NCBI GenBank assembly: GCA_018292915.2 | Contig: JACVVK020000085.1 | Coordinates: forward strand, 1,746,001-1,810,000 | From: Batillaria attramentaria | Taxonomy: Eukaryota > Mollusca > Gastropoda > Batillariidae | Length of the DNA stretch: 64,000 bases | Direction of reading: 5' to 3' | Part shown: piece by piece, positions 9,315-48,960 of the stretch | Layout of the letters: the number at the start of each line of letters is the position of its first letter | Position numbering within the stretch: position 1 is the first letter of the stretch | Translations under genes and position numbers: made by a program | Notes under the pieces: generated by a model | The model's database searches: none | What the model was told of the DNA's origin: nothing | The model's input: only the letters and a program-made list of their open reading frames with translations

Positions 9315-9482
9315 GAGTCGAGACAGCCAAATGGTAGAGCGTTGGACTTTCAATGCTCGGGTCGTGAGTTCGAATTCCGGCTAGGGCCACATATTTGTGT
9401 TGGATTTATTTCTCGTTGCCCCGTCTTGGACTGATATCACTCATATGTGGTGGAAAAGGACGTTAAATTACCAAACACCCAC
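9315..9482 (+). mobile_element. tRNA-derived SINE S1, copy 2
   Basis: The A-box region is AATGGTAGAGCGTTGGAC and the B-box is GAGTTCGAATTCC, followed by the S1 body ending GTGGTGGAAAAGGACGTTAAA. Relative to other copies there is an extra ACTG at 9430-9433, inside the conserved CTTTGATATC block. Confidence 0.9.
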
Positions 9483-9798
9483 CTCGCACCCTCTCCCCGC
9501 TGCTCACATCTCATAGCAGACAGCTTTCCAAATCAGAAATGTGACATATGTATATGCAGCTCTTGTTTACAATAGCATACACCAACACGTGGCTGCCACA
9601 ATTTTTCATTCTCTTACCTAAAATTCCACCAAAACACCTGTTCACTCACAACAATTTAAAAAAAAAAAAACTTTCGTTCAATTCCTCTCTGCAAAAAAAA
9701 AATCAACAAGAAAATTTCACTATTACATAATTACATGTATACACAAAACAGACTCCTACAAGCCACTTCTCGCGCAGCCTAATTGGGCATTTGTTTCG

Positions 9799-10110
9799 TG
9801 AATCGCAGCTTCTAACGGATGTATCGCCTACACTTTTCCACAGACAAATATTCACAGACACGCTCAAATGGATTCCTGTATCGCCTACACTTTTCCACGG
9901 ACAAATCTTCACAGATATTCTCAAATGGAATCCTGTATCGCCTACACTTTTCCACAGACAAATCGTCACAGATATTCTCAAATGGAATCCTGTATTGCCT
10001 AACTTTTCCACAGACAAATCTTCACAGATATTCTCAAATGGAATCCCGTATCGCCTACACTTTTCCACAGACAAATCTTCACAGATATTCTCAGATGGAA
10101 CCAACAGGAG
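9799..10110 (+). repeat. 57-bp-period minisatellite, about five units
   Basis: The word GTATCGCCTACAC (or a close variant) starts at 9821, 9878, 9935, 9992 and 10048, giving periods of 57, 57, 57 and 56. Each unit includes TTTTCCACAGACAAATCTTC and CAGATATTCTCAAATGGAAT. Because 57 is a multiple of three, long open frames arise on both strands; I treat these as by-products. Confidence 0.92.
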
Positions 10111-10612
10111 AAAGAACCAGAAGCGACCTTCGCTGTAATTTTTGCCGGGTTTCAGATGCCAGCTGGCAAGGTCAGTGTGTCTGGAAGTTCTATTGCCAAG
10201 TTTGCTTGAAACCCAACAGATAACCGTAAAATTCACAAAGGAAGCGGAAACAACGGACATAAAACGTTCAGTTGAGACTACACAGATGCCCTCAAATGCA
10301 CTTTACGTCCTTCCTAATCGCAGAAACTTGGGTCTGGCGTTGAGAACCTGCCGTTTAGATTGTTGCGTGAATTTTATGGGCAAGGAAATTGAACGACGGA
10401 GGTACAACAGTCACGGACGCAAGAAAGCTTACGTTGTGCCATGCAGATTTTCTCCCGTCTCAAAAGCGACAAGTGCTCCTCCATGAAGGAGACTCTACCT
10501 GACCGGCTGAAGTATCAGTATTGGGATATGCTGGCCGATATCATTTAGGACAATGTGATATATGTTGGAAACAGCGCATGTGTAATAATAATAATTATTA
10601 TTATAATAATAG
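10111..10612. other. Non-coding stretch
   Basis: No supported gene. Unique-looking sequence ends in an AAT/ATT run (10583-10610) that leads into R1 copy 2. Confidence 0.5.
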
Positions 10613-10747
10613 CTGTGTATTGTGTAGGCGCTTTACTCAATTTCTTGAATCGGCTCAAAGCGCCTCGAGCCGGCTGAACCCAACACGCACGCTCATGTGA
10701 ATCACGCGCATTCTTTCACACACTGGACATGAACACATTACAGGCAC
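10613..10747 (+). repeat. Dispersed repeat family R1, copy 2
   Basis: Aligns with 1567-1695 from GTATTGTGTAGGCGCTTTAC to GAACACATTACA. It is preceded directly by the AAT/ATT run at 10583-10610. Confidence 0.75.
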
Positions 10748-10908
10748 CTGGTGCGAAGGCCAGGGTCAGCTCAGCAATTTCAGTTTCAGAATTTTTTTTT
10801 AAATTCTGCTCAGTTTCGGAATTTTAGAATTGCATTTATTTTCAAACTTTGTGGGCTGAACATTTCTAAAGCAGAGGGGGAGGAAGCCGGAGTACGCGGA
10901 GAGAACCC

Positions 10909-10910
<2 letters not shown>

Positions 10911-10965
<55 letters not shown>
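10911..10965. repeat. (GT)n microsatellite
   Basis: About 27 GT units. Confidence 0.96.
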
Positions 10966-10966
<1 letters not shown>

Positions 10967-11078
10967 TAATTTTAGGGGTTTTTTTTAGGGTTTTATTGTC
11001 ATGTTTACATTGTATATTGTTATCGAGTAATTGTGTATATCGATTCTTATAGTCAGTGGTGCCAGCGGGCTGTGGAAA

Positions 11079-11240
11079 GCTGAGATGGCCGAGCCAGAAC
11101 AACGCTGAACTTTCAGTCCTCGGGTCGTGAGTTCGAATCTAGGAATAAAGCCAAGTATTTGTGCCGACGTTTTCTTCGTACCCTTTGGTATTATCCTAAG
11201 ATAGACAGTACACGTTGAAAAGGATAGTAAATCCTTCAAA
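11079..11240 (+). mobile_element. tRNA-derived SINE S1, copy 3 (old, diverged)
   Basis: It keeps CTCGGGTCGTGAGTTCGAATC (B-box part) and a degraded tail GTTGAAAAGGATAGTAAA. Divergence is clearly higher than in the other copies, so it is probably an early insertion. Confidence 0.75.
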
Positions 11241-11956: not shown

Positions 11957-11958
11957 AC

Positions 11959-12041
<83 letters not shown>
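11957..12041. repeat. (GT)n microsatellite, about 42 units
   Basis: Uninterrupted GT run of about 84 bp. Open frames on both strands here are dipeptide-repeat artefacts. Confidence 0.97.
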
Positions 12042-12042
<1 letters not shown>

Positions 12043-12286
12043 CGACGTCTTTTGTTCCAAAGCGAAGTGGTTTTGAAGACAGCGAAAAAGGGTAACTATG
12101 TACACGTATGTGCACATTTTGACTCTGTTGGAAGTCAAGACTCAAAAAGTTTGGTCGTACAGTAGAACACGTGTCCCAACATCCAGCCACATTCGCTATC
12201 TCCTCCTCTCCCTCGAATATGAGGCACAGAAAGCCTGTACACAGGGTCGCAGAGAAATACATATAAATCAATCATTCGATCACTTC

Positions 12287-12294
12287 GCGCGCGC

Positions 12295-12326
<32 letters not shown>

Positions 12327-12359
12327 ATGAGAGACAGGCAGATTGACAGACAGACAGAG

Positions 12360-12395
<36 letters not shown>

Positions 12396-12451: not shown

Positions 12452-12524
<73 letters not shown>

Positions 12525-15516: not shown

Positions 15517-15682
15517 TGGTGGGTGGGAGGATGTCTGGGGATTTAACGTCCTTTTCCACCACATACAGCCGATATCAAAGACGGGACAACATGGGGTGCG
15601 GGGGGGGGGGGGGGGGGGGGGGAGCACAAATCAGTATTTGGCGCACAGCCAGGATTCTAACCCGATGAATATCCAGAGTTAC
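15517..15682 (-). mobile_element. SINE S1, copy 6, interrupted by poly-G
   Basis: Minus-strand copy with the GTTAAA-type tail at 15540-15560. A poly-G tract (about 22) lies at 15600-15622. The GCACAAATATTTGG block carries an extra CAGT at 15632-15635. Confidence 0.8.
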
Positions 15683-17820: not shown

Positions 17821-17983
17821 GGAGCCGGGAAAGTCGAGCGGTAACGGATTTTCACTGCTCAGGTCGTGAGTTCGAATCCTCAGTGGCTGGGAGCCAAAAT
17901 ATTGTGCTGTTTTTTCTCTCGTTGTCCCGTCTTTGATATATCACTCTTGGAAAAGGACGTTAATCCCTTAAACACTGACCCAT
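17821..17983 (+). mobile_element. tRNA-derived SINE S1, copy 8
   Basis: Head GGAGCCGGGAAAGTCGAG, B-box GAGTTCGAATCC and a shortened tail GGAAAAGGACGTTAA. Directly after the B-box it has an extra CAGT (17881-17884) compared with the family. Confidence 0.85.
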
Positions 17984-20280: not shown

Positions 20281-22239
20281 ATGAAATTCGTTAATTATCG
20301 CCAGACAATAGTGCCATCTAAAATGCCGAATGACACACATAGTCACCGATGTGTCACTGGTCATTTTGTGCCAACTTTGATGAGGATTCTTTGGAGAAAA
20401 GCCGACATAGCAAGGCGAAGAATCCGAGGGCTCACACCACGAAGCCGCGCCAGGCTAGCCGCCATACTGCTTGTTTGGGTGTCACTACTGCTCAGATGTG
20501 GGGACATAGAGGCGAACCCGGGGCCAACTGCACCAAGCCCAAACAACAACAACAACGACACGGACACTACAGGTATGGACACAGCGGACATGACAACGGA
20601 AAGTCAACAAGTCAACGAGCGTACAGCGGTCAACTTCGCAAGCGGTGTCAACGAAAACGCAACACGCCATACTGAAGGTGAGAGCACGGGCACAACAAAC
20701 TTCGATAAGCGCCTTGACCGTATCGCTACGCTCATTGAGTCATTGACTGTTTCACAAAACAACATGTCAAGGACAGTAAACACACGTTTAGGGGCTCTGG
20801 AACAGACAGTACAAAACAAACTAAGCGATGTGGACAACAAAATTGACGTGGTGAATGATGATATTGTCGCCTTACAAGAACAGGTGGAGAGACTAGAGGG
20901 AGAAAATAACAGTCTGAGAGATGAGTTGGTAGAGCAGGCAAAAAGACTGGAGTATATTGAGTCGCAGGCACGGAGGCAAAACCTGTTGTTTTTTGGGGTC
21001 CCAAAACAGAGAGACGAAACATGGGAAGAATGTGAAAGACTGGTACAAAACGTGATCAGACATGACATGAACATACAAACAGACATTCACATTGAACGTG
21101 CGCACAGGGTAGGCCAGGCGATCTTGGTGAAAATGTACAGTCTGAGGGACAAATCTCTTGTTTTGAGAAATGCACGCAACCTAAAGTTCAGTGGCATAAG
21201 TGTGTCGGAGGACTATTCCCCACGGGTCAGGGAGATCAGGAAAGGTTTGCTTGGCTTGCAGCGCACTTACAGGGAGGACAAAAAGACGGCCAGGCTTGTG
21301 TTTAACAAACTACACACTCCTGACGGTATTTTCACGTACGACACGGACACAAAGTCTTTTGTGAAGGTTGACCCGTGGTCAGATCGCCAGCCCCAGTCCC
21401 AGCACGTGCGCGCACAGCAAGAGGACAAGTACAGCTACAGTTGTGCAACGGATGAAGCGGAGCTAACACGGGCCCAGTTTACACGGGACAAAGGACAGTC
21501 ACGTGGGGCAGAAGGTGTGTCACGTGCGAGTTGCGACCTGGACATACCCAACGCAGCATCGCTCACTCATTTCCCTTCACTGCAGCCGAGCGATCAACAG
21601 CCCTCTGTTCCTGGTTGGTGCGGCTTGTCGGGTCAACAGCATGATGGAGCTTTGCTGGATGTTGGACCGGGCGACAGTCACCATGACATGGGACCCAGGG
21701 GTGACCAACATACTTACAACAACAACACCCCAGGAGGCGGCAACAGCGACAACGCAAACGGAGGTGACAACAACAGGCAGAACAAGAACGGTCGCAACGG
21801 CGTCCATGAGCAGAGGACCGACAGCGGCGGGGCCGAGGATGACAGCAACATTAGTGACAGCGGGTTTGACAACCGAGCTCAAGGCAACGACTACGTCGAC
21901 CACAGTAACCGCGGTGAGAGCACTAACCGTGGGGGTGGCCTCAGCGGCAGCACCAGAGGCAGGCGCAACGACCGAGCAACGGTTGGCGGCCGCGGTGGTG
22001 GAAGCAGTCGGGCCGGTGCAGGCCATGGTGTTAACCGTGGCGGCGGCAACAACCGAGATGGCAGCAGCTACCGTGGTGGACACGGTGGTGTTGGGAGCAG
22101 GGGCGACGACAGGAGGAGCAAACAGAGCGGCCCTGCTAGGCAGACCCTGCTTGGCTTCGGTGGTGGTACAGGCCGTGGCTCCGGACGTGGCGTGTTGGCA
22201 GAGCGGCGGCAGGACAACCCGAGCGACGCGTGGCGATGA
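20281..22239 (+). CDS. LINE ORF1 protein with N-terminal 2A-like motif
   Basis: A 652-residue ORF1 with a true ATG. Residues 35-71 are Arg-rich then hydrophobic (LAAILLVWVSLLL). They lead into GDIEANPGP at residues 74-82, an exact match to the 2A consensus D-(V/I)-E-x-N-P-G-P, at 20500-20526. In characterised 2A peptides the ribosome skips the bond between this Gly and the last Pro. Residues about 140-230 form a long coiled coil; 233-300 look like an ORF1-type RRM (NLLFFGVP, then IERAHRVG). Residues about 460-650 are Gly/Asn/Arg-rich with RGG-like repeats, expected to bind RNA. ORF1 proteins coat the element RNA and act as chaperones. The 2A would release an 81-residue leader peptide. The frame ends in TGA at 22237-22239 and stays open beyond it. 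Confidence 0.93.
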   Translation: MKFVNYRQTIVPSKMPNDTHSHRCVTGHFVPTLMRILWRKADIARRRIRGLTPRSRARLAAILLVWVSLLLRCGDIEANPGPTAPSPNNNNNDTDTTGMDTADMTTESQQVNERTAVNFASGVNENATRHTEGESTGTTNFDKRLDRIATLIESLTVSQNNMSRTVNTRLGALEQTVQNKLSDVDNKIDVVNDDIVALQEQVERLEGENNSLRDELVEQAKRLEYIESQARRQNLLFFGVPKQRDETWEECERLVQNVIRHDMNIQTDIHIERAHRVGQAILVKMYSLRDKSLVLRNARNLKFSGISVSEDYSPRVREIRKGLLGLQRTYREDKKTARLVFNKLHTPDGIFTYDTDTKSFVKVDPWSDRQPQSQHVRAQQEDKYSYSCATDEAELTRAQFTRDKGQSRGAEGVSRASCDLDIPNAASLTHFPSLQPSDQQPSVPGWCGLSGQQHDGALLDVGPGDSHHDMGPRGDQHTYNNNTPGGGNSDNANGGDNNRQNKNGRNGVHEQRTDSGGAEDDSNISDSGFDNRAQGNDYVDHSNRGESTNRGGGLSGSTRGRRNDRATVGGRGGGSSRAGAGHGVNRGGGNNRDGSSYRGGHGGVGSRGDDRRSKQSGPARQTLLGFGGGTGRGSGRGVLAERRQDNPSDAWR

Positions 22240-25677: not shown

Positions 25678-26273
25678 TACTCATTTCAGAGAACTATGCC
25701 ATAATGTACGCGCCACATGCCCCAATGTCACCAGTTGTAACCAGAGGGCTCAGCTGGGGGGGGAGTGTTCCTTTTTGTTCCTTTTGTTCCTCTGTGTGTG
25801 TGTGTGTGTGTGAAGTGGGTATAAACTAGGATATATTCTATTGTACGCACAAAGTTGTCTACACGCAAAACAAAATAGTAAAGACATGCATACACATACT
25901 AGTAATATAAACTAAGGAAACGCACAGTTGGCAAGGACTGAGGCCAAATCAATCAAGCACACGACTATTTAAAAAATTCAAACTTGCGGGGTACAAACTA
26001 ATGATGCAAATGAACCATCGTAATCTGTAGTGTATACATGTACAGCATGTGGCCACGAATGTGGATACTTTATATGGTAATTATCTTATGCTTTTTCTGT
26101 GTTTTTATGTTTTTCTGTTTTGTGTTTTTGTGTTTTTTTCCCCCTTTCTTTAAGGTATCCAGTACCCACACGTGTCTTGCTGTGAAAATGACGACTGATC
26201 ATGTATTGTGCATGTATAACTCCCCCTTGTTACGGATCAAGTATCCAAACAATAAAATATGTCGAAGTCGAAG

Positions 26274-26328
<55 letters not shown>
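25678..26328 (+). other. LINE 3' untranslated region and tail
   Basis: There is no open frame of note. It has a GT patch (25793-25812), a T-rich stretch (26090-26150), AATAAA at 26251-26256, then GTCGAAGTCGAAG and a CT/GT dinucleotide tail from 26274. LINEs outside the L1 group often end in short tandem repeats rather than poly(A). Confidence 0.7.
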
Positions 26329-26332
<4 letters not shown>

Positions 26333-27920
26333 GACTAACTGTTACACAAAGCAATCAAACTTACACAAGTCAGTAATGAATGCACTAACTCCGGCTAAAA
26401 ATCTGTCTGCCGCGCAGTTGTCGAGTCAACTGGCACAAAGGCCTTTTTTTCAAAGGTAAATCGAGCTATTGAAACAAATACATGACTAGAAAGTGAAGAT
26501 TCACGCGCATGAAGATACGAAAATGCGGCTTCGCTGAGCCAGTAAACCAAAGTTTGAAATCAGTTCCTGGCAGCCGTGAATGATGACCTGAGCAAAAGTG
26601 GTGACTGTAAGTCGAGGGACGGATCCTGTTTTCAGTCTCTGGTCCGGCGTCTGTACGACATTATAAAAAGTCATTGCTGTTTATCATTTCTTGGACTTCT
26701 TCCTTTCAGCAGACGCAACTATCCTCTATATTAAATATAATTATGACACTTGTGTAAGCGGAATTACAACACTTTTGAGCTGCCCTGAGATGGAAAACTG
26801 TCGCTTTCCGGCCGTCGAAGCTCTCAGTGAGACTGTTAGGCCATCGCCGCGACCGTTTCCATGACTTTGTGGCTTCTAAGTAGACTGAGAAATACGAATT
26901 TCTTTGAGACTACGGTCCATACCTGAACAGCAGACTGGGACTCGACAAAGCTTCCAAAAACACTGAGCGGCCACCAATCAGCGCAGTCTGGTCCTCAGTC
27001 TGTAACCAGCCGAATCAGTAACGTCCGGCGTCTGCTCAGTCAGTACGCGGAACGCTTCTAGAACAACTTACACGCCGGCCAGAATCAACGCAATGATTGG
27101 AGGTGCTATACTGTGACCCAAGTGACTGAGTCTGATGCACAGCTTGAATGAATTTGTTTAAAGTTTTCCGTACGCCAATGTGTGCCTGTCAATGGTATCA
27201 AGTGAAGGCTTTAACTCAGTCTTTCTACACATCATACGCCTGGCACCACTGAGCTGCTTGGATCCCGTAGTGACATTGCACTCCACCATGTGGGACACTG
27301 AAATGATATTATATCCAGAGGAAGTGTCGCATAGATGTTGTACTTTACATCCCCTTCAGCGGTTTGCGCAGGAACTTGAACCTAACGGCAGACATGTTGG
27401 TAAGGGAGGTAGAGTGTAAACAAACTATTACGACTATAGTCGTAGCTCGTGCAGAATGAGTTAAACGGCTCAGTCGTGTGTGACCTGGGCGTGTCCCCAT
27501 CTCAATCTGCACTGAATGAAATTGATAGTGTTGCACGGCCGCTTCAGTTGAAGAGAAAAGCCTGAAATACAGTGAAGTGCGCAAACCACCGCGATCTTCT
27601 TCAGTTGTTGTTTTGTTTGGGGGTTTGTTTGTTTTTGTTGTTGTTGTTGTTGTTGTTGTTTTTTATATTGTCATTACTGAAACTTGAGAAAGACTTCAAG
27701 TAGAGAAAGTTATTGATTTTGCTTTTGACTCGGCACCTCAGTGGCCTGGGTCGACAAGAATATTATTAGCAGTGTCAATGTGCAGGTGGATGTGATATAC
27801 ATATCTGCCTCGTGTCACTTTCTTTCACGTCAATAGCATTTTTTTAAAAGTCTCAATACTGACGTGTCAGTGTCAGGCATACAACAACGCCGGCTGTGAA
27901 CTTCTCGTCGAATGCGCGCT
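26329..27920. other. Non-coding stretch rich in TCAGT/ACTGA
   Basis: No gene is supported. TCAGT or ACTGA occurs about ten times between 26560 and 27150. A TTG triplet run lies at 27619-27662. Confidence 0.5.
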
Positions 27921-27924
27921 TAAA

Positions 27925-28263
27925 GCTCTAAGCACCCAACAAAAACTTTCCGAAGTGTGAAAAAAATTGTACAGAGTCGACCGTGCAAGCACAGTCAACT
28001 CTGTCACAGTTGCAGAGTTTTCAGCGTCCCTGAAACCCCAATAAAAGCCGAGGGCAGCCTGATCTCACACCGTTTTGACACTGATCGAGCGAGAAAGATC
28101 GTGCAGCACTCAACATCCGCTACTGAGACACTGTAGCGGTGTGTCTCGCTCGCGCACTGACCAAAAGCCAACTAATGTCACGGCAAACTCGTGCTCTGGT
28201 TTTGTAAGCGTCTCCGAAGCGCTGAAAACTCTGCAAGTGTGACAGAGTTGCCTGGATTATGCA
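27925..28263 (+). mobile_element. Fold-back repeat family F1, copy 1
   Basis: It aligns with 52692-52928 (TTTCCGAAGTGTGAAAA, then CAGAGTCGACCGTGCAAGCA, and so on). This copy also contains inverted repeats of about 30 bp: AACTCTGTCACAGTTGCAGA near 28000 and its complement TCTGCAAGTGTGACAGAGTT near 28232-28251. It looks like a non-autonomous fold-back transposon. The MULE-like element at 28274 sits immediately to its right. Confidence 0.75.
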
Positions 28264-28273
28264 CAGTCGAAGG

Positions 28274-28489
28274 GGTGAAGGCTATTTTGGAGGGAACTCG
28301 TGCAGGTCTATTTTTAGACGGACGTCACCTGAGGTCATGGGATTCCGGAAACGCCCGATAGCGCGTTCAAACCCTAACCAAACCCTAACCCTATGCCTAA
28401 CCTTAACCCTAAGCCTAAAACTAAACCTAACCCTAACCCTAATCGTCTAAAAATAGACCTGTACGAGTTCCCTCCATAATAGCCTCCCC
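28274..28489. mobile_element. MULE-like MITE with telomere-like core
   Basis: Terminal inverted repeats of about 41 bp (outer part GGCTATT, inner part TCTATTTTTAGACG) differ at only two positions. The element is flanked by a 10-bp direct repeat CAGTCGAAGG at 28264-28273 and 28490-28499. Long TIRs with a 9-10-bp target-site duplication are typical of Mutator-like elements. The interior (28372-28441) is mostly CCTAA/CCCTAA units. No transposase is present. Confidence 0.85.
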
Positions 28490-28499
28490 CAGTCGAAGG

Positions 28500-28874
28500 A
28501 GTCGCCGTTTAAACGCCATGTTTGCGGCTTTTTGCTGAGATTGCAGACCGTTCGCGTCAGAATCAGTCACTTGGATCCGGGACACAGTATAGCATCTGAA
28601 ACCATTGTTTGGCGCATAATGTTGTTCTACACACGTAGAAGCGTACCGCGTACTGAGCAGACGACTGTGACGTTATCGATGTGATTGCGTACTGAAGACC
28701 AAGTATACAGCGCTGAACGATGGTGGCTATTTACATTGTCGATCGGCGTGTAGTTCAGTTATGGACGCGTTCGGCCAAAGAAAGTCATATTTCTCTACGA
28801 TTTGAAGCTGCAAAGTCATGGAAATGGTCGCAGTGACCAAGAGGCAGTAGGCCCACTCACGTGACAACTGACCA
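28500..28874. other. Non-coding stretch
   Basis: Nothing recognisable. Confidence 0.4.
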
Positions 28875-29348
28875 CCCTGAGTTAGTTAGTTAGTTAGTTA
28901 GTTAGTTAGGGCTTAACGCCGCGTAGGCAACGCTGAAACTATTTCGCGGCTACCACCATGAGTTAGTTAGGGCTTAACGCCGCGTAGGCAACGCTGAAAC
29001 TGAGACTGTCACGGCTACCACCATGAGTTAGTAAGTTAGTTAGTTAGTTAGTTGGTTAGGGCTTAACGCCGCGTAGGCAACGCTGAAACTATTTCGCGGC
29101 TACCACCATGAGTTAGTTAGTTAGTTAGGGCTTAACGCCGCGCAGGCAACGCTGAAACTGAGACTATTTCGCGGCTACCACCATGAGTTAGTTAGTTAGT
29201 TTGTTAGTTAGTTAGGGCTTAACGCCGCGCAGGCAACGCTGAAACTGAGACTATTTCGCGGCTACCACCATGAGTTAGTTAGTTAGTTAGGGCTCAACGC
29301 CACGCAGGCAACGCTGAAACTGAGACTATTTCGCGGCTACCACCATGA
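28875..29348 (-). repeat. Minisatellite of 68-95-bp units with GTTA spacers
   Basis: Six units share GGGCTTAACGCCGCG, AGGCAACGCTGAAACT and ATTTCGCGGCTACCACCATG. They are separated by (GTTA)n runs of varying length. Some units carry an extra GAGACT after GAAACT. Read on the minus strand each unit resembles the SINE-like tail at 52386-52440 (TAGCCGTGAAATAGT, GCGCGGCGTTA, then ACTAACTAACT). Confidence 0.9.
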
Positions 29349-29607
29349 CTACCAACAGTGCCATCTCTGAGGCCAGCTATCCCGTCTCCCCAGTGAGTAG
29401 TAGGCCACCAAATTCGAACCGACAGAGACGGAAGGAAATACTCGGCATTATGCACCACTGACTACAGACAGGCATGTCGTTCTGTTTTCACTACTGACCT
29501 GGAAACAATACGGCCTTTGACGCAGAAGTATGAATGAAGGGCAACGGCGACTGGCTTTGATTTGTGTGGCACTCCATACCGGCCGCAAATACGGTACACA
29601 ATGACAT

Positions 29608-29643
<36 letters not shown>

Positions 29644-29645
29644 GG

Positions 29646-29689
<44 letters not shown>

Positions 29690-30769
29690 GGCGGCTGCCA
29701 CCCAAAATAGTTCACTTCAGAATGTAGAGGAAGATATGATCTATATATAGCTAGCTCAGCTCAGTCAGTGTTATTCAGTCTACGTTATACTGAACGTGAT
29801 CATGATGATGACTCAGATCTGCTAATTGAAGTTGTTACCACGTGGTCGTAGGAAAATAGTTACGTTTCCCAGGTGAAGTCACTGAGTGCTGACGCTGAAC
29901 GATGTGCCGCTCAGATTTGCTCCGATGTTTTCATAGGAAAATTGTGTTCCAAGTGAAGGGCTAACATTGAATACTATATCAGTATATGATGAACCGATTA
30001 CATCAAATCAGTCATCAATGACGTAGAATTAGTTCACTGTATAGCTCTCAGAACTGGTTTTCTTTATGCGTAGTGTGTACATAAATGAAGCAACCAGCTT
30101 CACACCACCAAACCGTGAATATCATCATTACATAGTGTAATCAGCGGCCCGGCTCAGGAGGAACTGAAGTAGTTCAAGCAGAACTGACCTGACCCGGCTG
30201 AAGTGGATCCGCGGTACGTCTTTTGGCATAGTGAGTTCAAAGCGTACCGGCGTGTACCCAGACATAGTCACTGTCAGAATCAGTTTATTACTTGACAACG
30301 TTTAGTACCGCCAGTGCCTCCTTCCAGCCTTGACTGATCGACGTGCCCGGTATAACAAAGACAAACTTACTCCCCAAGGGGTTTGCTCTGAAGTAAAAAT
30401 ATCGTACCTGAAGAAATTCAAGTCTTACACAGGCGTAGAAAAGTCCGATGACAGAAGAACTCCCTTGGTATGAGAGTACTTCTGTCCGCGTACGAGGTCT
30501 CTACCCGCGAGTAACACTTTCGTACGGTATTTTTACCGATATTGCTACACGGAGTAAGCCCCTCGTGGGAGTGAAGTTTGTCGGGCTATACCGGCATCAT
30601 CATCAGTTTGCGTTGCCGGCGGAGAAAGGACCAAGTGACCAAAGACCAGACAAGTCACAGAACAGCTCAGATATCACTGTTCAACCCGATGAGCACATGC
30701 AGTGACTACCTGAACAGCCGGAGCAATAACTTCATTAGTCTTCACAGACTTGTAATAACTAGCACTGGT
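29349..30769. other. Non-coding stretch with CT arrays
   Basis: It contains the interrupted CT microsatellite 29607-29689 and many TCAGT/ACTGA words (about 13 between 29740 and 30700). No gene is supported. Confidence 0.5.
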
Positions 30770-30772
30770 CTG

Positions 30773-31083
30773 GGCCCGCATGTAAAACTCGAGGTTAATT
30801 TTAACCTACGGCTACGGGCCGAACCCAGACTAGGACAAAACAAACCAAAAAACAAAAACAAAATTGAATTTTAAAAAAAGGAGGCGAAGAAAGGTAGGAA
30901 AAAAATCTCTAACGGCCGCTTAGGCACCATGGTAGAATGGACCCGTTTCAGTTGTGCTTAAACACCCCCCCCCCCCAAAAAAAAAAAAAACAAAAAAAAC
31001 AGAAAATTTAGTCCTAGAGCTAGTTTAGTTAACCTAGTTAACCTTGGGCTAAAATCCCTAACCTCGACTTTTACATGCGGGCT
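30773..31083 (-). mobile_element. MITE family M1, copy 1
   Basis: Inverted ends GGCCCGCATGTAAAA and TTTTACATGCGGGC. It is flanked by CTG at 30770-30772 and 31084-31086. The interior has A-rich stretches and matches M1 copies 2-4 in reverse complement. TSDs of the form CWG (3 bp), a GG-starting TIR and the lack of a transposase suggest a PIF/Harbinger-like non-autonomous element; the superfamily is inferred. Confidence 0.85.
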
Positions 31084-31128
31084 CTGACTGATTTGTTTCC
31101 GTCTGCGCCTGACTTGCCTCACATCCCG

Positions 31129-31302
31129 GGTGGGAGGGTGTTTTGAGAGTATAACGTCCTTTTCCACCACGTTTGGGTGATATCAAAGACGGGGCAACGA
31201 GAATAAAGGCCAGCACAAATATTTGGCCCCAGTCGGGATTCGAACTCACGACGCGAGCATTGAAAGTCCAAGGCTCTACCATTCGGCTATCCCGGATCCC
31301 CC
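31129..31302 (-). mobile_element. tRNA-derived SINE S1, copy 9
   Basis: Minus-strand, near full length: AATGGTAGAGCCTTGGAC, GAGTTCGAATCCC, and the tail motif GTGGTGGAAAAGGACGTTA. It lies only 46 bp right of MITE copy 1. Confidence 0.92.
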
Positions 31303-32240
31303 TTCAGATCCCGGCTACTCAGTACTAAATTGTTATGCTTCCCATAACGGCCGGGACGTCACTAAACAACGTCTGCTAAATTCAGTCAGTCGCGGGGCGC
31401 CACAGTGTAAGACGGAACTTCATCAGTTGATCTCAAGGTCTAGGTCTGCCCGGGGTAAACACTGCCAACCTGATAAGAACCATGCTGCGCAGTCAGTGGC
31501 GTAACATCACGCCAGCGATTGCTGAGTGTTCACAAGTTGTTGATGTCGCCAATCTAATCAAAATAAAGACGGCGCCTGTGCTAGTCATCACGCTTTTTCT
31601 GTGGTGAGGCGGAGGGGTGGGAGGTGGAGCAAGGGGCGAGAAGCGAGCTCGAGATTATCTAAGGAGAAGATAACCACCTGGAGGAGAAGCTGAGAGATAA
31701 GTGGAAAGACCGAACATAGCTGAAGAGGCTGTGCTGACCTTGCCACAGGGGTGCTAGTCAGTGAAGATGGAGAAAGGGAAAGCCATACTTAATTTTGATG
31801 AGCATGTGCAAGTCTTTTCATTGTGGTAACGCGTTAGTAAAAGTCGTTCAGTTTGTGGTTGATAATCGGCACCATCTCTCACACCGACAGATTGAAACCC
31901 AAGTCCTTTTTCCCGGTCAGTCACGTTGCTACTTAGTACTTCGATTCAACCGAAGTTCTGACCGCGACATGATTCTTCTCGGCAAAAGCCATACTGTGAT
32001 ACCTGAAATATGAACATGCACCCCCACCCCCCACCCCCGGCTTTCCCACCCCACTACGCCCCCCCCCCCCCCCCCCTTTTTTTTTTTTTTTTTTTACATT
32101 GTAGTTACGTTAGAAGCGTAATGCGTACTGAGCACACGACGTTGTTTGGTTGCGGACTGAAGACTGACCGGGCCAACTACACACGGCTGACTGGTGGCTG
32201 TTTTCATCAGATTCGTTGAGTCAGTCCCAGTCAGTCTGTC
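31303..32240. other. Non-coding stretch
   Basis: No gene is supported. A poly-C then poly-T tract lies at 32058-32096. Confidence 0.5.
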
Positions 32241-32243
32241 CAG

Positions 32244-32507
32244 GGCCCGCATGTAAAAGTCGGGGTTAGGGAGTTTAGCCCCGGGTTAGAGTCTAACCTC
32301 GAACTAAACTAGCTCCAGAGTTAAAGTTTCTGTTGCTTTTTTGTTTTAAATCAGGAAGCGGGTCCATTCCAGCAAGGTGCCTATGCCGTTATAGAAGGAT
32401 TTTTGTCTTTCTTTCTTCTTTAATTTTGTTTTAGGGTTTCTTTTGTCCTAGTCTGGGTTAGGCCCGTAACCGTGGGTTAAATTAACATCGAGTTCTATAT
32501 ACGGGCC
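32244..32507 (+). mobile_element. MITE family M1, copy 2
   Basis: Begins GGCCCGCATGTAAAAGTCG and ends near ACGGGCC, flanked by CAG at 32241-32243 and 32508-32510. The right CAG also serves as the left CAG of copy 3, so the two elements are head-to-tail and share one target repeat. Confidence 0.9.
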
Positions 32508-32510
32508 CAG

Positions 32511-32763
32511 GGCCCGCATGTAAAAGTCGCGGTTAGGGATTTTAGCCCCGGGTTTAAAGTCTATCCTCGAACTAAACTAGCTCTAAATCAGGGTCCATTT
32601 CAGCAAGGTGCCTATGCCGTTCTAGAAGGATTTTTGTCTTTCTTACTTCGCCGGCTTCCTTTTTTTTTAATTTTATTTTGTTTTGGGGTTTCTTCTGACC
32701 TAGTCTGGGTTAGGCCCGTAACCGTGGGTTAAATTAACCTCAGTCGAGTTTTACATACGGGCC
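32511..32763 (+). mobile_element. MITE family M1, copy 3
   Basis: Same family and orientation as copy 2, flanked by CAG at 32508-32510 and 32764-32766. Near its right end the conserved AACCTCGAGTTTTAC-type block carries an extra CAGT (32741-32744). Confidence 0.9.
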
Positions 32764-33183
32764 CAGGAACGGAACTTAGGCTCAAAGAAAGTCGTATTTC
32801 TCTAATATTAGAAGCCACAACGTCACCAAAACGGTTGCAATAGTCAAATGAAGCCTCCTTCTCTCTAGTAAATAACCTTATATATTCGAAAGCGGCGGTT
32901 TTTCATCTCAGCGTCGTTAGGAACATAACGGCTTTATAAACATACCCCGGCCTCTTGATTTTTATGAGCTACAAACTCGACCCGCCAGGCGGTGCTCCGG
33001 CTACAAGTGGTAACAGATGTTTGATGGCTCTGTTGACTATCGCCTCTTTCCACTGGTTGATACTGTAGAGATGGTGTTACTTTTAGCTTCAGGGGGAAAA
33101 GTACTGGTGGTATTCGGCATATGTTCGGTTACCGTCTTCGGATTTCCTTCATTCGAAGCCGGGAATTCTCTGTTGCAGGATCT

Positions 33184-33226
<43 letters not shown>

Positions 33227-33377
33227 GGGGGGGCTGATGTCAGTGACCGAAATATTAGTCAGTATTGAACTTGACTGAATCAGTTCGTAAACTCAGTTGA
33301 TGAGACTGACATTTCGTACGAGAACAGCGGTTACTGACGGCCCAGGCGCCCGTAGATTGTCAATATTTGAAAAGTAA
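32764..33377. other. Non-coding stretch with very long poly-G
   Basis: 33184-33225 is 42 consecutive G, then one A and seven more G. No gene is supported around it. Confidence 0.6.
33184..33233 (+). repeat. Poly-G tract (42 G + A + 7 G)
   Basis: The longest homopolymer in the window, capable of forming several stacked G-quadruplexes. The exact length may be uncertain because such tracts sequence poorly. Confidence 0.85.
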
Positions 33378-33543
33378 ATGGGTGTTTGGGGGTTTAACGT
33401 TCTTTTCCACCACATACGGGTGATATCAAGGACGGGGCAACGATGAAAAAGCCAGCACAAATATTTGGCCCCAGCCGGGATCGAACTCACGACCCGAGCA
33501 TTAGAAGTCCAACGCTCTACCATTCGACCACCCCGGCTCCCCT
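33378..33543 (-). mobile_element. tRNA-derived SINE S1, copy 10
   Basis: Minus-strand near-full copy with AATGGTAGAGCGTTGGAC and a GAGTTCGATCCC B-box. Imperfect flanking repeats (GAAAAGTAAAT and AAAAACTAAAT) may be the target-site duplication. Confidence 0.92.
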
Positions 33544-34225
33544 TAAAAACTAAATAGTACTTTAAAGTGTCATATGCCGATTCAGTGCTAACCCCAAGTT
33601 AGTCTGTACTCTATTACTAGAGTGTTAAAAACGGGAACGGTAAGCGGGATCACTGAGGCACTTGTTCTGGAAATCGCTTATTGGCGAGGGGGGGGGGGAG
33701 GAGGCTTTGCTGCTCAGTGTGCCCAAACTGACCTTTGATCTTGAAAGGGAAAATAACAATACACAAAAGAGGCAGCTTCGTCTGTTGGCTTACTGACATT
33801 AACCAGCCCGAGAGGCACCCGGCGGCCACAGTCTTTTTCAGTGTCTGTTTTTGTCGTCAGTCGGCGCCGATACGCTATATCAGTTCTTGAAGCTGAAGCT
33901 GCTCACAAAATCCATTATCTCGAATCCATGCACTGGCACTCAGCTTGGTCTGGCAAAATTCCTAAATAAACAATTCCAGGCTTTTTTTTTCTTGCTTTCA
34001 GTGATTAAGTTAAAGATATCATATCATGTCGAAATTCACTTTAAAAATTACCCAGCTCCGTCCTTGCATCTCAGTTCTAGCGCCTGAATACCCCCCCCCC
34101 CCCACTCCCCGTCTCCCCGGCACCTCATTCCCCTTTCCACACCGGCAAAAACATTGAGTGGTCCATGGCTGTTCTCAAAATGGTCTCTGCCTCTCTCTCT
34201 CTCCCGGCCTCGCCCCTCTCTCAGT

Positions 34226-36144: not shown

Positions 36145-39100
36145 CCCCATCGATGAGTGCATCCTTGCCGTTGGAGATGGGGCTTGCGTGTCTCCATGAC
36201 CCCGAGAGCTATGCTGGCGGGAGATTCGTCTCCTGGTAGGGCCACCCATGCTGGACAGGTCGAAGGGTAGAGGCCAGACGAAGCGCACTCACTGGTCCTC
36301 CAGGTTGGGGGTTTGAGTAGGGCTAACAACCCAACTCTTTAAAAAAAAGAACTTGTTACAGAAACTACAACCACAGATCTACAACGCAACTTGGTCCAGG
36401 AAGAGTCCTCTCTAGTAGAGCCCATGACGCGAGCTGGTGAAAGCCCTCGGGAAGCCAGTGCGCCGACTACTCTTCTGACGGCCAAGACCAAAGCCAGGAT
36501 AGGGACCTGGAACATCCGAACCCTATACGAAACAGGAAAGACAGCACAAGTGAGTCAAGAAATGCATAGATACAATCTGAAGCTGCTCGGCCTATGTGAG
36601 ACAAGATGGACAGGAACAGGACGCACACGACTCACCTCCGGAGACACCATCCTCTACTCCGGACACGAAGACGGCCAGCCACACATGCATGGAGTAGCGT
36701 TGCTGATGACACCTGAAGCAACACAAGCACTATTGTCCTGGGAACCAGTGTCACCAAGGATCCTGAGCGCCAGGTTCAACTCCAAGGGCAGGAAAGTCAC
36801 CATCCTCCAGTGCTACGCTCCCACCAACGTGGCGGACGAGGAAGAAAAGGAGAACTTCTACGAGCAGCTCCAAGCCGTCCTGGACAAAGCACCGAGAAGA
36901 GACCTGAAGATCCTCATGGGAGACCTCAACGCCAAAGTGGGCACCGACAACACAGACAGAGAACTCATCATGGGCAAACACGGAACAGGGACACAGAACG
37001 AGAACGGAGAGCTCTTCACAGAATTCTGCACCACCAACGACCTGGTCATCGGAGGCACCATCTTCCCGCACAAGACCATCCACAAAACCACCTGGACATC
37101 ACCGGACGGAAGAACTGTAAACCAGATCGACCACATCACCATCGGCAGGAAGTGGCGAAGAAGCTTGCTGGACGTCCGAGCAAAGCGGGGAGCTGATGCA
37201 GCCTCAGACCATCACCTCGTCATTGCAGCGATCAAGATCAAGCTGAAGGCCTACAGAGACCAGGCGGACAGACCATCTCACAAGTACAACGTGCACAGTC
37301 TGAAGGAGAGCGTCAAGACCAACGCCTTCAGGTGTGAGCTGAGGAACAGATTCAGCGCTCTTGACACACCACCTGAAGAGACAATCGAGGAGCACTGGCA
37401 TGACCTGCGAGAAACCTGGACAGCAACATGCAAGAAAGTGCTGGGAAAGAAGACGAGACAACACAAAGAGTGGCTTACATCTGACACCTGGGACCTCATC
37501 ACAGAGAGGAAACGCCTGAAAGACCTGATCAACCACACTGACGACCAAGACGACAAGCGCGACCTGCAGGCTCAATACTGGGACGTCAACCGGCAGGTCA
37601 AGAGGAGCGCAAGGAACGACAAGAGGAACTTCATCAACGACCTCACAGAAGAAGCAGAAACAGCAGCAGGACAACGGAACATGAAACGGCTCTACGAAAT
37701 AACAAGGACACTCTCTGGGAAAAATAACAACCCCACCAGACCAGTCAAAGACAAGAATGGACAAATCATCACCAAAGAGGAAGACCAAAGGACAAGGTGG
37801 GCTGAACACTTCAAGGAAACGCTCAACAGGCCTCCACCACCAGTCCCACCAGACATACCACCGGCAGCCCAGCTACTCGACATCAGCACCAACCCCCCTA
37901 CCAAGACCGAGATCATCAAAGCCATCAAGTCCCTCAAGTCTGGCAAAGCAGCAGGCCCCGACGGCATACCACCAGAAGCCCTCAAGGCCGACATCCAGAC
38001 CTCCACCGACATGCTGCACCCGCTCCTGAGGAAGATCTGGGAGAACGAGAGCGTGCCACAAGACTGGAAGAAGGGACACCTGGTAAAGCTGCCAAAGAAA
38101 GGGGACCTCTCATCCTGTAGCAACTGGCGAGGCATCATGCTCCTGTCCATACCAGGGAAGGTTCTCACCAGGATCATCCTGGAGAGGCTGAAGACCGCGC
38201 TGGACAAGACACTCCGGGAGGAACAGGCAGGATTCCGCAACGACCGATCCTGCACTGATCACATAGCCACGATGAGGATCATCATCGAGCAGTCCCTGGA
38301 GTGGCAGACCCCCCTGTACAGCACCTTCGTTGACTTCCAGAAGGCGTTCGACAGTGTTGACAGGGAGGTCATCTGGAAGCTGATGTCTCACTACGGTTTT
38401 CCACCAAAGTTTGTCAACATCATCCGACAGCTGTACGAAGATGCCACCTGCCAGGTAATCCACGACGGGAAACTGACAGAGCCGTTCACAGTACGGACCG
38501 GCGTTCGTCAAGGCTGCATCCTCTCACCCACAATCTTCCTGATGGTGGTCGACTGGGTCATGAGGCAAGCCACCGACGGCAAGAGGACAGGGATCCAGTG
38601 GACCTTCAGCAAACAGCTCGAGGACCTGGATTTCGCGGATGACATCGCCCTCCTCTCCCACAAACAACAAGATGCGCAGGAGAAGCTGAACAGAGTCGCC
38701 GAAGAAGCTGAGAAGACCGGCCTCAAGATCAACATCAGCAAGACCGAAGTCATGAGAGTCAATCACAAACAGCACGACCCCATCCAGCTGCACCAGGAAG
38801 ACATCAAAGAGGTGGACAAGTTCGTCTACCTCGGCAGCGTTGTCAGCAAGGATGGAGGAACGGACGAGGACATCAAGAGCCGCACCAACAAAGCCAGACA
38901 TGCCTTTCGCACTCTACGCCCCATCTGGAGATCCACAGCCCTATCCCTGCGAAACAAGATTCGGATCTTCAACTCAAATGTGAAGTCGGTCCTACTCTAT
39001 GGCTCGGAGACATGGCGCACCACCAAGACAAGCTCCCACAAGCTGCAAACCTTCATCAACAGATGCCTCCGCAACATTCTCAACATAAGATACCCACTGG

Positions 39101-39430
39101 TGATCACCAACCAAGACCTCTGGGAGGGAACAAGACAGGTCCCCATCGAGCAGGAGATCAAGAAAAGGAAATGGGGATGGATCGGACACACTCTGCGAAA
39201 GTCAACATCAAATGTCACCAGGCAGTCCCTTGATTGGAACCCCCAGGGAAAGCGCAAAGTGGGCCGACCGAAGCAGACCTGGCGGAGGAGTACGGACGCT
39301 GAAGCCAAGGCCGCCGGAACGACGTGGGCCGAACTAAAGAGGGCGTCCCAGAACCGAGTGCGCTGGCGGAGTGTGGTTGCAGCCCTATGTTCCCCAGGGA
39401 ATAAAGAGGATTAAGCTAAGTTAAGCTAAG
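36145..39430 (+). mobile_element. Full-length RTE-type non-LTR retrotransposon
   Basis: A 3286-bp element bounded by a perfect 13-bp target-site duplication. It has a ~280-bp 5' leader, one long ORF, and almost no 3' UTR. The ORF stop overlaps a short tandem 3' tail of TTAAGC/TAAG units (39411-39430). A single APE-RT ORF, short 3' end and tandem-repeat tail are hallmarks of the RTE clade. The perfect TSD and intact ORF mark a recent, possibly active insertion. Confidence 0.95.
36424..39414 (+). CDS. RTE endonuclease-reverse transcriptase
   Basis: The frame is open from 36391 (a TTG); I use the first ATG at 36424, giving 996 residues. Numbered from 36391, the endonuclease has TWN (39-41), a Glu in LGLCETRW (70), GDLN (177-180), IDH (246-248) and SDHH (272-275). 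The reverse transcriptase has VDFQKAFDSVD from about 647, GVRQGCILSP near 705 and FADDIALL near 748, with all catalytic Asp present. The C terminus has the conserved KWGWIGHTLRK and GKRKVGRPKQTW blocks typical of RTE-like proteins. The protein nicks target DNA and primes cDNA synthesis on the nicked end. No frameshift or stop is seen. Confidence 0.95.
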   Translation: MTRAGESPREASAPTTLLTAKTKARIGTWNIRTLYETGKTAQVSQEMHRYNLKLLGLCETRWTGTGRTRLTSGDTILYSGHEDGQPHMHGVALLMTPEATQALLSWEPVSPRILSARFNSKGRKVTILQCYAPTNVADEEEKENFYEQLQAVLDKAPRRDLKILMGDLNAKVGTDNTDRELIMGKHGTGTQNENGELFTEFCTTNDLVIGGTIFPHKTIHKTTWTSPDGRTVNQIDHITIGRKWRRSLLDVRAKRGADAASDHHLVIAAIKIKLKAYRDQADRPSHKYNVHSLKESVKTNAFRCELRNRFSALDTPPEETIEEHWHDLRETWTATCKKVLGKKTRQHKEWLTSDTWDLITERKRLKDLINHTDDQDDKRDLQAQYWDVNRQVKRSARNDKRNFINDLTEEAETAAGQRNMKRLYEITRTLSGKNNNPTRPVKDKNGQIITKEEDQRTRWAEHFKETLNRPPPPVPPDIPPAAQLLDISTNPPTKTEIIKAIKSLKSGKAAGPDGIPPEALKADIQTSTDMLHPLLRKIWENESVPQDWKKGHLVKLPKKGDLSSCSNWRGIMLLSIPGKVLTRIILERLKTALDKTLREEQAGFRNDRSCTDHIATMRIIIEQSLEWQTPLYSTFVDFQKAFDSVDREVIWKLMSHYGFPPKFVNIIRQLYEDATCQVIHDGKLTEPFTVRTGVRQGCILSPTIFLMVVDWVMRQATDGKRTGIQWTFSKQLEDLDFADDIALLSHKQQDAQEKLNRVAEEAEKTGLKINISKTEVMRVNHKQHDPIQLHQEDIKEVDKFVYLGSVVSKDGGTDEDIKSRTNKARHAFRTLRPIWRSTALSLRNKIRIFNSNVKSVLLYGSETWRTTKTSSHKLQTFINRCLRNILNIRYPLVITNQDLWEGTRQVPIEQEIKKRKWGWIGHTLRKSTSNVTRQSLDWNPQGKRKVGRPKQTWRRSTDAEAKAAGTTWAELKRASQNRVRWRSVVAALCSPGNKED

Positions 39431-46047: not shown

Positions 46048-46465
46048 ACGTACTAAACGCAACGGTACACGCGCATTCTGTGCTTGTGATGTGGCTCAGT
46101 CACGGGGGTGAAACAAAATGAACGGGTGTTTTACCGGTACTATGCCGCTTTGCTCTTCAGTCAGCGAGTCGTTCCCTAGCCTTAGCAATGCATTTTCCCA
46201 AATTCAAAACGCTTTGGATTTTCAGTTGTCGGTGAGAACGATTGAAAGAGGCCGTTTACCACCAAGAGGCCGACGTGTACCAATACGTTACCACAATCTA
46301 AAGACGTGTGTATGCTCATATTCTAAAATAACGGCTTTACATAAGAGCAATCGTCGTCGATACTTTAAATGCGGCCGGTGTAGCACCAGAAAAACGCCCG
46401 TCCATTTTGTTTCACACCCGTGAGCCACCTCACAAGCACAGAATGCGCGGGTACCGTTAGTACGG

Positions 46466-46466
<1 letters not shown>
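46048..46466. mobile_element. Long-inverted-repeat transposon (non-autonomous)
   Basis: About 100 bp at each end are inverted copies. The left end has CGCGCATTCTGTGCTTGTGA, TGTGGCTCA, TGAAACAAAATG and ACGGGTGTTTT, mirrored at 46395-46466. The left arm has an additional CAGT at 46097-46100 that the right arm lacks. The 101-residue frame at 46118-46423 lies inside it and has no transposase motif. Long TIRs suggest a Mutator-like or fold-back element. The right end abuts a GT array. Confidence 0.85.

Positions 46467-46468
<2 letters not shown>

Positions 46469-46532
<64 letters not shown>
46469..46532. repeat. (GT)n microsatellite
   Basis: About 32 GT units, followed by poly-C and an A-rich tract. 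Confidence 0.97.
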
Positions 46533-46533
<1 letters not shown>

Positions 46534-47880
46534 CCCCCCCCCCCCCGCAAAAAAAAAAAAATTATAAAAAAATAAAATAAAAAATAATATGTTGGGAACA
46601 CTCTTCCGTGGTTACCCCCCTCCCCCCCCCCCCACACACACACACACTACCCCCTGCCCCTCCCCCCTCCCCTACCCCCTGAGGCTTGGCGTATTAAAAG
46701 CACCGGCCAGAAAGGGCGTATACACTCAGTAACGTACTCCTCCAACTGTCAGAGACAGAACCAGCAGAACAGTTACGAGTATAACGGACTAAGACTTGTA
46801 TCTCACGTTTGAAATGTCAACCATTTTGAGTTTGTGGTAAGTCAGTAATTGCCACCAAGTCGCCTGACACGTTCCGCGACAGACGGAAGTGCTTGTGCAC
46901 CTGTTTGTGTTAAATGTATGTATAGTAAAGCGTTTGAGTGTCTGTTGTAAAGATTTCACATCGTATTGTGAGCGTTTTCCGCGGCAGTCTGGTGTTGTCT
47001 GGTTGCGAACGATACCGACTGATGGGCGCGAGTGGTTATGTGCGTGTGTGAATGTGTACGGGAAGGTGTAAGGCAAGACTGGGTCGGCCGGTCCACCCGA
47101 TGGACAGACATCATAAAACAGGAAACGGTCCGTGGTAACACTGAACACATCATTTGTTGTTTATAATGTTGAACTGACACCCCATACCGGGGACGTGGAC
47201 TGGTTATTTCACTGAGTTCACTTTGACAGTGATTGTTCGGGTGTGAACCAGCCTACATAAAGCGCACGGTTACACGACTGCCAGTCTGCATGTTGCCGTA
47301 CTCGGCTGTCTGCTGGCGGGCAGCGTTTTTTTTTCCGCACACGCAGCCTGCGGCGTTGCAACGTTTGGGCAGTGATTGGTCAATTGGCTGTACGGGCTGC
47401 CTGTGGCTAGCTGGCTGCCAGGAAAAATAGGACGGCTTTCCGCGCCGGCACAGGTAAGGGGGATTTGCCAGCTGGCAGCCAGCGATTTATTCAGGGTTTC
47501 CTGCGTTTCCAGCCCTGCAAGTACCGATCCTGGCAACGTGTAGCAGCGGCCCTAAGATCAGTCAGTTCAGGTATCCACCCACAGAACAAGTAAACATTTG
47601 AAAATACAGTAACATGAACTAAGAAAAAGAGGATCGGTGCACATACTTGTCAATAATAGTAATGGAAAGTACGCGCGCACCGAATCCACGAACAACACAA
47701 GGGAAGTAAGAAGTCTGTGATATTTTTACACGGCTACCGGATTACCTCTCTTTATCGTGGGCATCCCCGTCACGTGTCAGTAACGCGGGTATTGTCCTCA
47801 TCGCCGGCTATACAGCAAGCTTGCAGCTTACTTTCAGGTGAGTGTACTCTAGAGATTTCTAGAAACGTTCATAATACATT
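46533..47880. other. Non-coding stretch
   Basis: C-rich runs at 46616-46680. No gene is supported; the frames at 46789-47148 and 47233-47430 have no known domain. Confidence 0.5.
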
Positions 47881-48960
47881 CTGACCTAAACAAGAGAATG
47901 TCAAGTTGGTTAATGCGAGATAGCACTCAGTACTCAGTGATATAGTGACTGAGGCCGGATCACTCAGTACTGAGACACTCATACGAGTACTCCCAATGAA
48001 ACCGCACTTAGTGTCACTCAGTGGTGCCCGAAGCGCCTGAGTCAGAATGTACAACGCCCGGCAGTTACTTGGGTGAGAGAGAATTTCACATCAGTTCAAG
48101 CCAAACACGCCTGCCAGAAACAATTTGTCCTTAAGGGCTAAAAGCCATAGGACGTCAGTAAAGCAAGCTAAGTTCGGCCCCAGACTGAGTCGGTGCAGCG
48201 CGACTGAAACCAAAAGGCGGTTAAACGTGATAGGTGATGGGAAAGTACTACTGACTGGACGCGGCGTCAGTCGTTAATACTGACTGAATAAGTGCGGGTA
48301 TGTTCCTCAGTGTTAGACTTTACTTAAGGCCATGCCGGTCAGTTTGGCGACTGAGACGAACTGCACCAACGACTCGAGCTGTCATATCAGTCCACTCAGT
48401 ATTGCCGTACACATGGGGGTTGACTGAATTCGCCGGGTCACGGGTCTGCCGATACTGAACCCGAATCGAGGGGCATCCCGCCCCCCGCATCCTCCCTCGT
48501 CCGTCCCCCCTCCCTACACACACTGACACACACTCAGTGACACAACGCACACGACTGACCCGGCACCGTGACACACAGAGCACCCACCGTCAGTCACACC
48601 CATATACGCACCCGCACACCCATCCACCCACCCACGCTGACTGACACACAGTGACTCTGTGACACACGGCGGAGAGGGAGAACTCAGTGAACTGAGAGAG
48701 AGAGAGAGACTGACAGAGAGTGTGTGTGAGTGTGTGTGTGTGTGTGTGTGTGTAACATCAGTGATTAGCTTGTCGCGCCGGCTCCACAGCGGATACGTCT
48801 GAACGGATTTTCTCTCAGTTTCGGTAGTTCGCTGCGCCACGGTAAGCGCGTCAGTAAACTAGGGCGTTCAGTTGACAGGCCGTGCTGTTTCAGTATTTAG
48901 GCCGATAACCTACGTAGGCGGCGGGTGTCAGTGACAGTCATACACTGAAGCGATGGCGTG
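47881..48960. other. TCAGT/ACTGA-dense non-coding block
   Basis: By eye I count about 36 TCAGT or ACTGA words in about 1.08 kb, against roughly 2 expected by chance. They are dispersed singly and in pairs, not in a tandem array, and occur in both orientations. A copy of a short repeat (TTAAGGGCTAAAAGCCATAG) lies at 48130-48149, with its relative at 53693-53712. A GT microsatellite is at 48718-48752. Confidence 0.8.

Follow-up and report, generated by a model that had tools for sequence, protein, structure and literature searches.

Inserts of the fixed sequence CAGT, each placed directly after a T so that T becomes T-CAG-T, are real, strongly fixed in sequence, and clustered, and they recur across the genome of the gastropod Batillaria attramentaria. 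They were noticed in a 64,000-bp stretch of an assembly of 715 Mb in 863 contigs (C85:1746001-1810000, hereafter the window), where an earlier note had listed six of them and read them as a recurring micro-insertion or excision scar. On re-reading, all six were found where the note had placed them, and genome-wide scans, together with scar-like variants of the insert, support its reading: the insert is constant in both strand orientations, a T is required before it, the base after it varies, and its occurrence at GATT^CGAA, ACT^CACG, and other non-TA sites (the caret marks the point of insertion) bears out the statement that it is not a TA-target footprint. We favor, at a probability of roughly 45%, the interpretation that the scars are double-strand-break joining products left by the excision of a putative DNA-transposon-like element, with one T:A pair duplicated. 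"Excision scar" is a provisional term, because the donor element was not found in the searches described below.

The window and 20 random 10-kb loci from the same genome (10 kb of these 200 kb is N) were compared by unsupervised all-versus-all BLAST, and insertions with matched flanks were tabulated. The CAGT/ACTG class accounted for 10 of 25 four-base insertions outside low-complexity sequence, and the next class had 3 members; the case 1 site contributes to both of these classes and thus appears twice among the 25. Three-base and five-base insertions numbered 14 and 8, respectively. With looser settings and 20 more loci carrying a short interspersed nuclear element (SINE), the class made up 10 of 28. 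Four of the six listed inserts (cases 1, 4, 5, and 6) were recovered in this way, and cases 2 and 3 were recovered as CAGT by aligning SINE copies to their consensus. Case 1 is ambiguous because the adjacent base also differs (CTTTG to CTTGG); pairwise alignments give a GGAC insert in 68 pairs versus ACTG in 2, and the consensus alignment gives GTCC. Case 5 lies in an element with arms at 46061-46147 and 46376-46458. A further pair proposed as a weaker seventh case (42214 and 43785) has only ~8 bases in common, on one side. Outside SINEs, CAGT/ACTG inserts were found at several random loci and in three further repeats: one that resembles a miniature inverted-repeat transposable element (MITE), one arm of an inverted repeat, and one short repeat.

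The word TCAGT is in excess as well. The masked window contains 321 copies, versus 214.9 expected from 4-mers (z 7.2), which ranks it first among 5-mers, and the random loci contain 705, versus 581.3 expected (z 5.1, second by z-score). Over the 264 kb of window and random loci, 1046 copies were seen against a summed expectation of 596 from control words. The base preceding the scar was free (A 219, C 216, G 303, and T 308 of the 1046), and GTC, GTG, and CTC contexts showed the largest excess over control words, TTA and ATA the smallest.

Genome-wide scans of SINE junctions gave the same insert. At CTC^ACG, T-CAG-T (23) and A-CTG-A (14) together made up 37 of all 49 four-base inserts, with a binomial probability of ~1e-67 against 2/256 when places are treated as independent. 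At GATT^CGAA, the full set of 83 inserts (3-33 bp) included CAGT 20 times, CAAGT 5, CAGTT 5, and CTGT 2; what remained split into minor classes, several of which are local duplications. Four extra bases were present at 459 AAAT^ATTT places, and 100 among the matches listed of these comprised AATT (56), ACTG (16), CAGT (8), and mostly A/T-only local forms; only 29 of the 100 inserts were not purely A/T, and 24 of those were CAGT/ACTG. The AATT insert probably marks a SINE subfamily or arose by local duplication. At the A of AAATATTTGG (AAATA^TTTGG), the form A-C-x-G-A, where x is 0-3 bases, occurred at 101 places; among the 100 matches listed of these, the insert cores were CTG 81, CG 5 (3 of them from a single contig), CTATG 4, CCG 3, CTCTG 2, CAG 2, and one each of CTGTG, CAAG, and CGTTG. 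The uninterrupted 13-mer has 47,771 occurrences, and the scar rate at this A is ~0.17% (82 of about 47,850). The earlier note had set in advance a comparison of CAGT with other 4-bp inserts across the SINE family; this was run, the preference was seen, and the claim came through unrefuted.

GT arrays were scanned for the pattern T-C-N-N-T, which matched at 9,183 places, versus 6,918 for the reversed control. Among 100 of the matches listed of the 9,183, all on one contig, we counted CAGT 39, CTGT 43 (a one-substitution form), and CACT 10. This agrees with the T-CAG-T reading, but the support is weak, because arrays mutate by substitution as well. A strict 8-bp rule gave zero CAGT cases among window microsatellite interruptions of 1-6 bp; a looser 6-bp rule, applied to 21 sequences, gave two, one in locus L014 and one in the window.

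The scar forms keep their outer letters, T-CA and AG-T, and the difference between them is confined to the middle, where an A is shared (CAG), there is no overlap (CAAG), or one extra base (CATAG, CAGAG, and CACAG) or two (CAGTAG) are present. At GATT^CGAA, T-CAAG-T and TT-CAG-TT each occurred in 5 of the 83 inserts; T-CATAG-T is present in L063 and L069, and by eye L052 carries T-CATAAG-T and L063 possibly T-CAGTGAG-T. The complete genome list of forms with at least one filler base at the tested SINE A holds eight: A-CTATG-A (4), A-CTCTG-A (2), A-CTGTG-A (1), and A-CTACTG-A (1). Common outer letters around a variable middle are the pattern of two ends united by end joining.

A mechanism that would yield this pattern runs as follows. 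The element would duplicate a single T:A pair at its target, and its departure would leave CA at one flank and AG at the opposite one. Each broken end would carry an element-derived C together with an A palindromic to the target T, as from a hairpin opened one base off. End joining would mostly pair the single A:T, giving CAG; unpaired ends would give CAAG, and filler bases at the joint could produce CATAG, CAGAG, or CAGTAG. Clusters may represent germline-accessible chromatin that was struck repeatedly. Hairpin-like excision with a one-base T:A duplication is favored because ends carrying C and the palindromic partner of the target predict the variant pattern. A broader complement rule, under which every base N would become N-C-n-G-N, originated in CCGG inserts at GATT^C and in the enrichment of CCGGC in TCAGT-dense bins; it was rejected for C:G targets, and the CCGG inserts have a neighboring CCGGG that permits local duplication.

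Several observations weigh against excision of this kind. The hairpin predicts C-CGG-C scars at C:G targets, and CGGC was found in 0 of the 49 inserts at CTC^ACG. Blunt CTTG was absent at the A of AAATATTTGG (0 of 100 among the matches listed), though CAAG reaches 5 of 83 at GATT^CGAA; the five A-CG-A inserts at the same A have no middle base, and T-CTG-T does occur (2 of 83 at GATT^CGAA). The filler in the eight filler-bearing remnants never exceeds two bases, whereas the search admitted as many as 31. We know of no DNA transposon superfamily with a one-base target duplication. The search for a donor adds to these points: none of 95 chained candidates listed as larger inserts in repeat copies has T[CA..AG]T ends, and 40 of 132 places with an interrupted SINE (AAATC[ACG]), when read, revealed no shared element; 9 of the 40 were judged to leave the SINE there, with starts unlike one another. 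Inverted repeats with T|CAG..CTG ends (28 pairs scored) yielded no repeated family, and the places read, which cover part of the genome, hold no intact mobile element that combines inverted repeats with a transposase. The transposon claim is therefore lowered, not excluded. The donor would be rare, extinct, or nearly always excised, or there is none and the insert is written directly.

Direct writing is the main rival. Under it no mobile element takes part: CAGT would be added to the 3'-terminal T of a break by a transferase, or by a reverse transcriptase or polymerase that carries its own template in the manner of telomerase. The places and candidates examined hold no donor, and the CTC^ACG scan shows such inserts at T:A only, both as this explanation would have it. 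With a T at its end, the insert could serve as primer for another round, and tandem TCAGTCAGT does exist (window 4, random loci 6, and a triple in L027); the rarity of tandems is, however, about what we estimate for independent re-insertion. Slippage on a CAGT template could account for CAAGT, CAGAGT, and CAGTAGT, but T-CATAG-T and T-CACAG-T are not simple products of such slippage. On this evidence we consider direct micro-insertion rather unlikely.

The SINE and repeat counts given here are places, which are not proven to be independent events because copying of a scarred SINE may have multiplied its scar, and certain neighboring places on a single contig in the junction scans look like duplicates. 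Amplification of source SINEs that were already scarred could thus explain part of the SINE counts, with fewer events than places, and the AATT insert resembles an inherited variant of this sort. CAGT/ACTG is nevertheless found at several junctions, on both strands, and in the MITE, the inverted-repeat arm, the short repeat, and other loci; amplification, which we think improbable as an account of the scars, limits the counts and leaves the phenomenon unexplained.

Trimmed Tc1/mariner footprints, that is, a Sleeping Beauty-type TACAGTA minus one base, have in their favor that TA-target scars exist in the same SINE: at AAAT^ATTT, TACATGTA was found 6 times and TACAGTA twice among the 100 matches listed of 223. 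Most T-CAG-T targets are non-TA (GATT^CGAA, ACT^CACG, CCT^CGAG, and GCT^CACG), and this explanation is therefore already contradicted; in addition, the TA contexts carry the least excess, and TACATGTA is not enriched in TCAGT-dense regions (1 seen versus 5.3 expected). We regard it as quite improbable. Slightly more improbable still is programmed somatic excision, in which the soma would lose, at fixed sites, elements confined to the germline, and T-CAG-T would be left in the sequenced tissue. It would account for many scars without intact elements, but scars common to copies a few to tens of kilobases apart on one contig (C37, 568513 and 580035) look inherited by duplication, although duplication of an element could explain them equally well. 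Sequencing or assembly artefact, which the earlier note had named as the main alternative, we judge very improbable. In its favor, the assembly derives from PacBio Sequel subreads with short-read polishing (PMC10382545). Against it, that polishing used 57.5 Gb of Illumina reads, and the inserts occur on both strands and in several sequence contexts, cluster strongly, and include graded variants as well as forms altered by point mutation, among them A-CCG-A (3 of 100 among the matches listed at the A of AAATATTTGG).

The scars are unevenly distributed. Counted per 500 bp, TCAGT has a variance-to-mean ratio of 2.05 (mean 1.98, maximum 17), and 13 of 14 control words fell within 0.98-1.65, the exception being TACAT at 2.55. 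The two strands of the window carry 159 and 170 copies, with no bias. The densest cluster reaches 32.6 per kb, versus 2.2 and 1.0 per kb in the reading-frame stretches of two long interspersed nuclear elements (LINEs), and stops ~0.9 kb ahead of the start codon (49864) of a RING-finger reading frame. Single SINE copies with at least two scars were found in L055, L060, and L067 by alignment and in L063 by eye; the copy in L055 also bears a GC-rich 7-bp insert, GCCGCGG. Three candidate causes of clustering were rejected: density correlates neither with repeat cover (r 0.03) nor with GC content (r 0.05), and, as regards age, the compared arms of a short foldback in L019, 94-99% similar, show no CAGT difference.

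Other sequence features lie in or near dense regions. TCAGT-dense 500-bp bins (window and L009-L028) show enrichment of CCGGC (ratio 2.78) and of similar GC-rich words, without a GC correlation; this co-clustering is not specific, because bins chosen by TGACT (2.3) or TCACT (2.67) show a rise in CCGGC too. L019 contains a large nested foldback (1134-3577) with several arms of 60-310 bp that are 94-99% complementary, and a dense TCAGT cluster adjoins it at about 3600-4900. A tandem array at 28880-29380 of the window has some units with the 6-bp insert ACTGAG at GAA^ACTATT, which may be A-CTG-A plus a duplicated GA.

If the SINE rate of ~0.17% is typical, the genome would hold ~0.7 million scars; the control-word excess would give ~1.2 million and the random-locus 4-mer expectation ~0.44 million. 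Such scars would amount to a frameshifting mutational force on a whole animal genome, easily recognized and counted, with ~33 per kb at the densest place. They could serve as dated, nearly homoplasy-proof population marks, and their hotspots could be mapped without experiment. We put forward, as a doubtful but far-reaching proposal, that a fixed-sequence DNA writing activity operates in an animal germline, in which an enzyme opens T:A pairs and leaves T-CAG-T, hundreds of thousands of times in one genome and concentrated in hotspots. It would be either the scar of a one-base-target element with near-complete, possibly programmed excision or a directly templated insertion; to our knowledge neither form has a described counterpart. 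Literature searches on footprints, microinsertions, one-base target duplications, and the letters themselves brought up no description of the CAGT insert, which is not proof of absence. The question raised is which enzyme writes T-CAG-T.

Listed scars, scar-rich zones, and neighboring reading frames of the window
Feature	Position	Strand	Remark
Case 1: ACTG in SINE copy	9430..9433	-	CAGT on - strand; ambiguous
Case 2: CAGT in SINE copy	15632..15635	+	CACAAAT[CAGT]ATTTGG
Case 3: CAGT in SINE copy	17881..17884	+	Preceding T is C in SINE consensus
Case 4: CAGT in MITE-like repeat	32741..32744	+	AACCT[CAGT]CGAG
Case 5: CAGT in left arm of long-inverted-repeat element	46097..46100	+	Right arm without insert
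Case 6: CAGT in short repeat	48156..48159	+	GACGT[CAGT]AAAGC
Further case: tandem CAGTCAGT after T	27037..27044	+	Found by BLAST
Scar within CA/GT microsatellite	48516..48532	-	Both sides in phase
Densest cluster	48001..48950	both	31 TCAGT/ACTGA in 950 bp
Broader rich zone	26001..34000		81 in 8 kb (TCAGT 44, ACTGA 37)
RING-finger reading frame	49864-50160
RNase_T exonuclease reading frame	51079-51582
RING/B-box reading frame	59535-60374

The window also contains a LINE at 20281-25677 with two long reading frames, the second of which has endonuclease and reverse transcriptase domains; near the start of the first is GDIEANPGP, which we take to be a 2A ribosome-skipping motif. A second LINE reading frame, at 36391-39414, has endonuclease, reverse transcriptase, and DUF6451 domains.

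The closest known systems include the Tc1/mariner elements. Sleeping Beauty footprints at TA read TACAGTA/TACTGTA (PMC4378557); they resemble the CAGT scar in being short, constant in sequence, and formed by end joining, with a central CAG flanked by target letters. Tc1/mariner elements need TA, whereas here any T:A pair serves, one base is duplicated, and the insert is 4 bp. The CAG and CTG outcomes are also unbalanced here: CAGT outnumbers CTGT by 20 to 2 of 83 after T, and CTG outnumbers CAG by 81 to 2 of 100 among the matches listed at the A of AAATATTTGG. Tc1/mariner-type TA scars themselves were seen at AAAT^ATTT, with one each of TACCGGTA, TACTAGTA, TACGTGTA, TACACGTA, and TACAGGTA among the 100 matches listed of 223.

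Ac/Ds (hAT) footprints contain palindromic flanking bases derived from hairpins (PMC4561436). Bases of this type would explain the A beside C on the T side of the scar and the T beside C on the A side, and they fit at T:A targets; at CTC^ACG, the predicted C-CGG-C appeared in 0 of 49, and the C and G of the scar are constant. The hAT target duplication is 8 bp, whereas the scar doubles one base only and leaves the other flanks unchanged. PIF/Harbinger and piggyBac excise precisely (PMC4561436, PMC7351741), and their target is 3 bp or TTAA, in contrast to a 4-bp scar at a single T:A.

The CAGT scar also differs from the traces of more distant systems. The base preceding it is free, unlike the target of Helitrons, which insert between A and T. 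V(D)J coding joints have P-like bases, overlap by one base, or contain a little filler, as does the scar joint; the scars are not a locus-specific rearrangement, and no recombination signals were seen, though none were looked for. Telomerase-like or other templated terminal addition shares a repeatable short unit primed on T, but the scars are mostly single units, lie within chromosomes, and vary in ways that are not unit slippage. Processive addition would give runs of the unit, and the tandem TCAGTCAGT count is 4 for the window and 6 for the random loci. Topoisomerase II breaks give 4-bp duplications that copy local letters; the scars are likewise four-base insertions, with letters that are identical everywhere. 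We assign the CAGT scar to no known family and conclude that it works most like an excision footprint.

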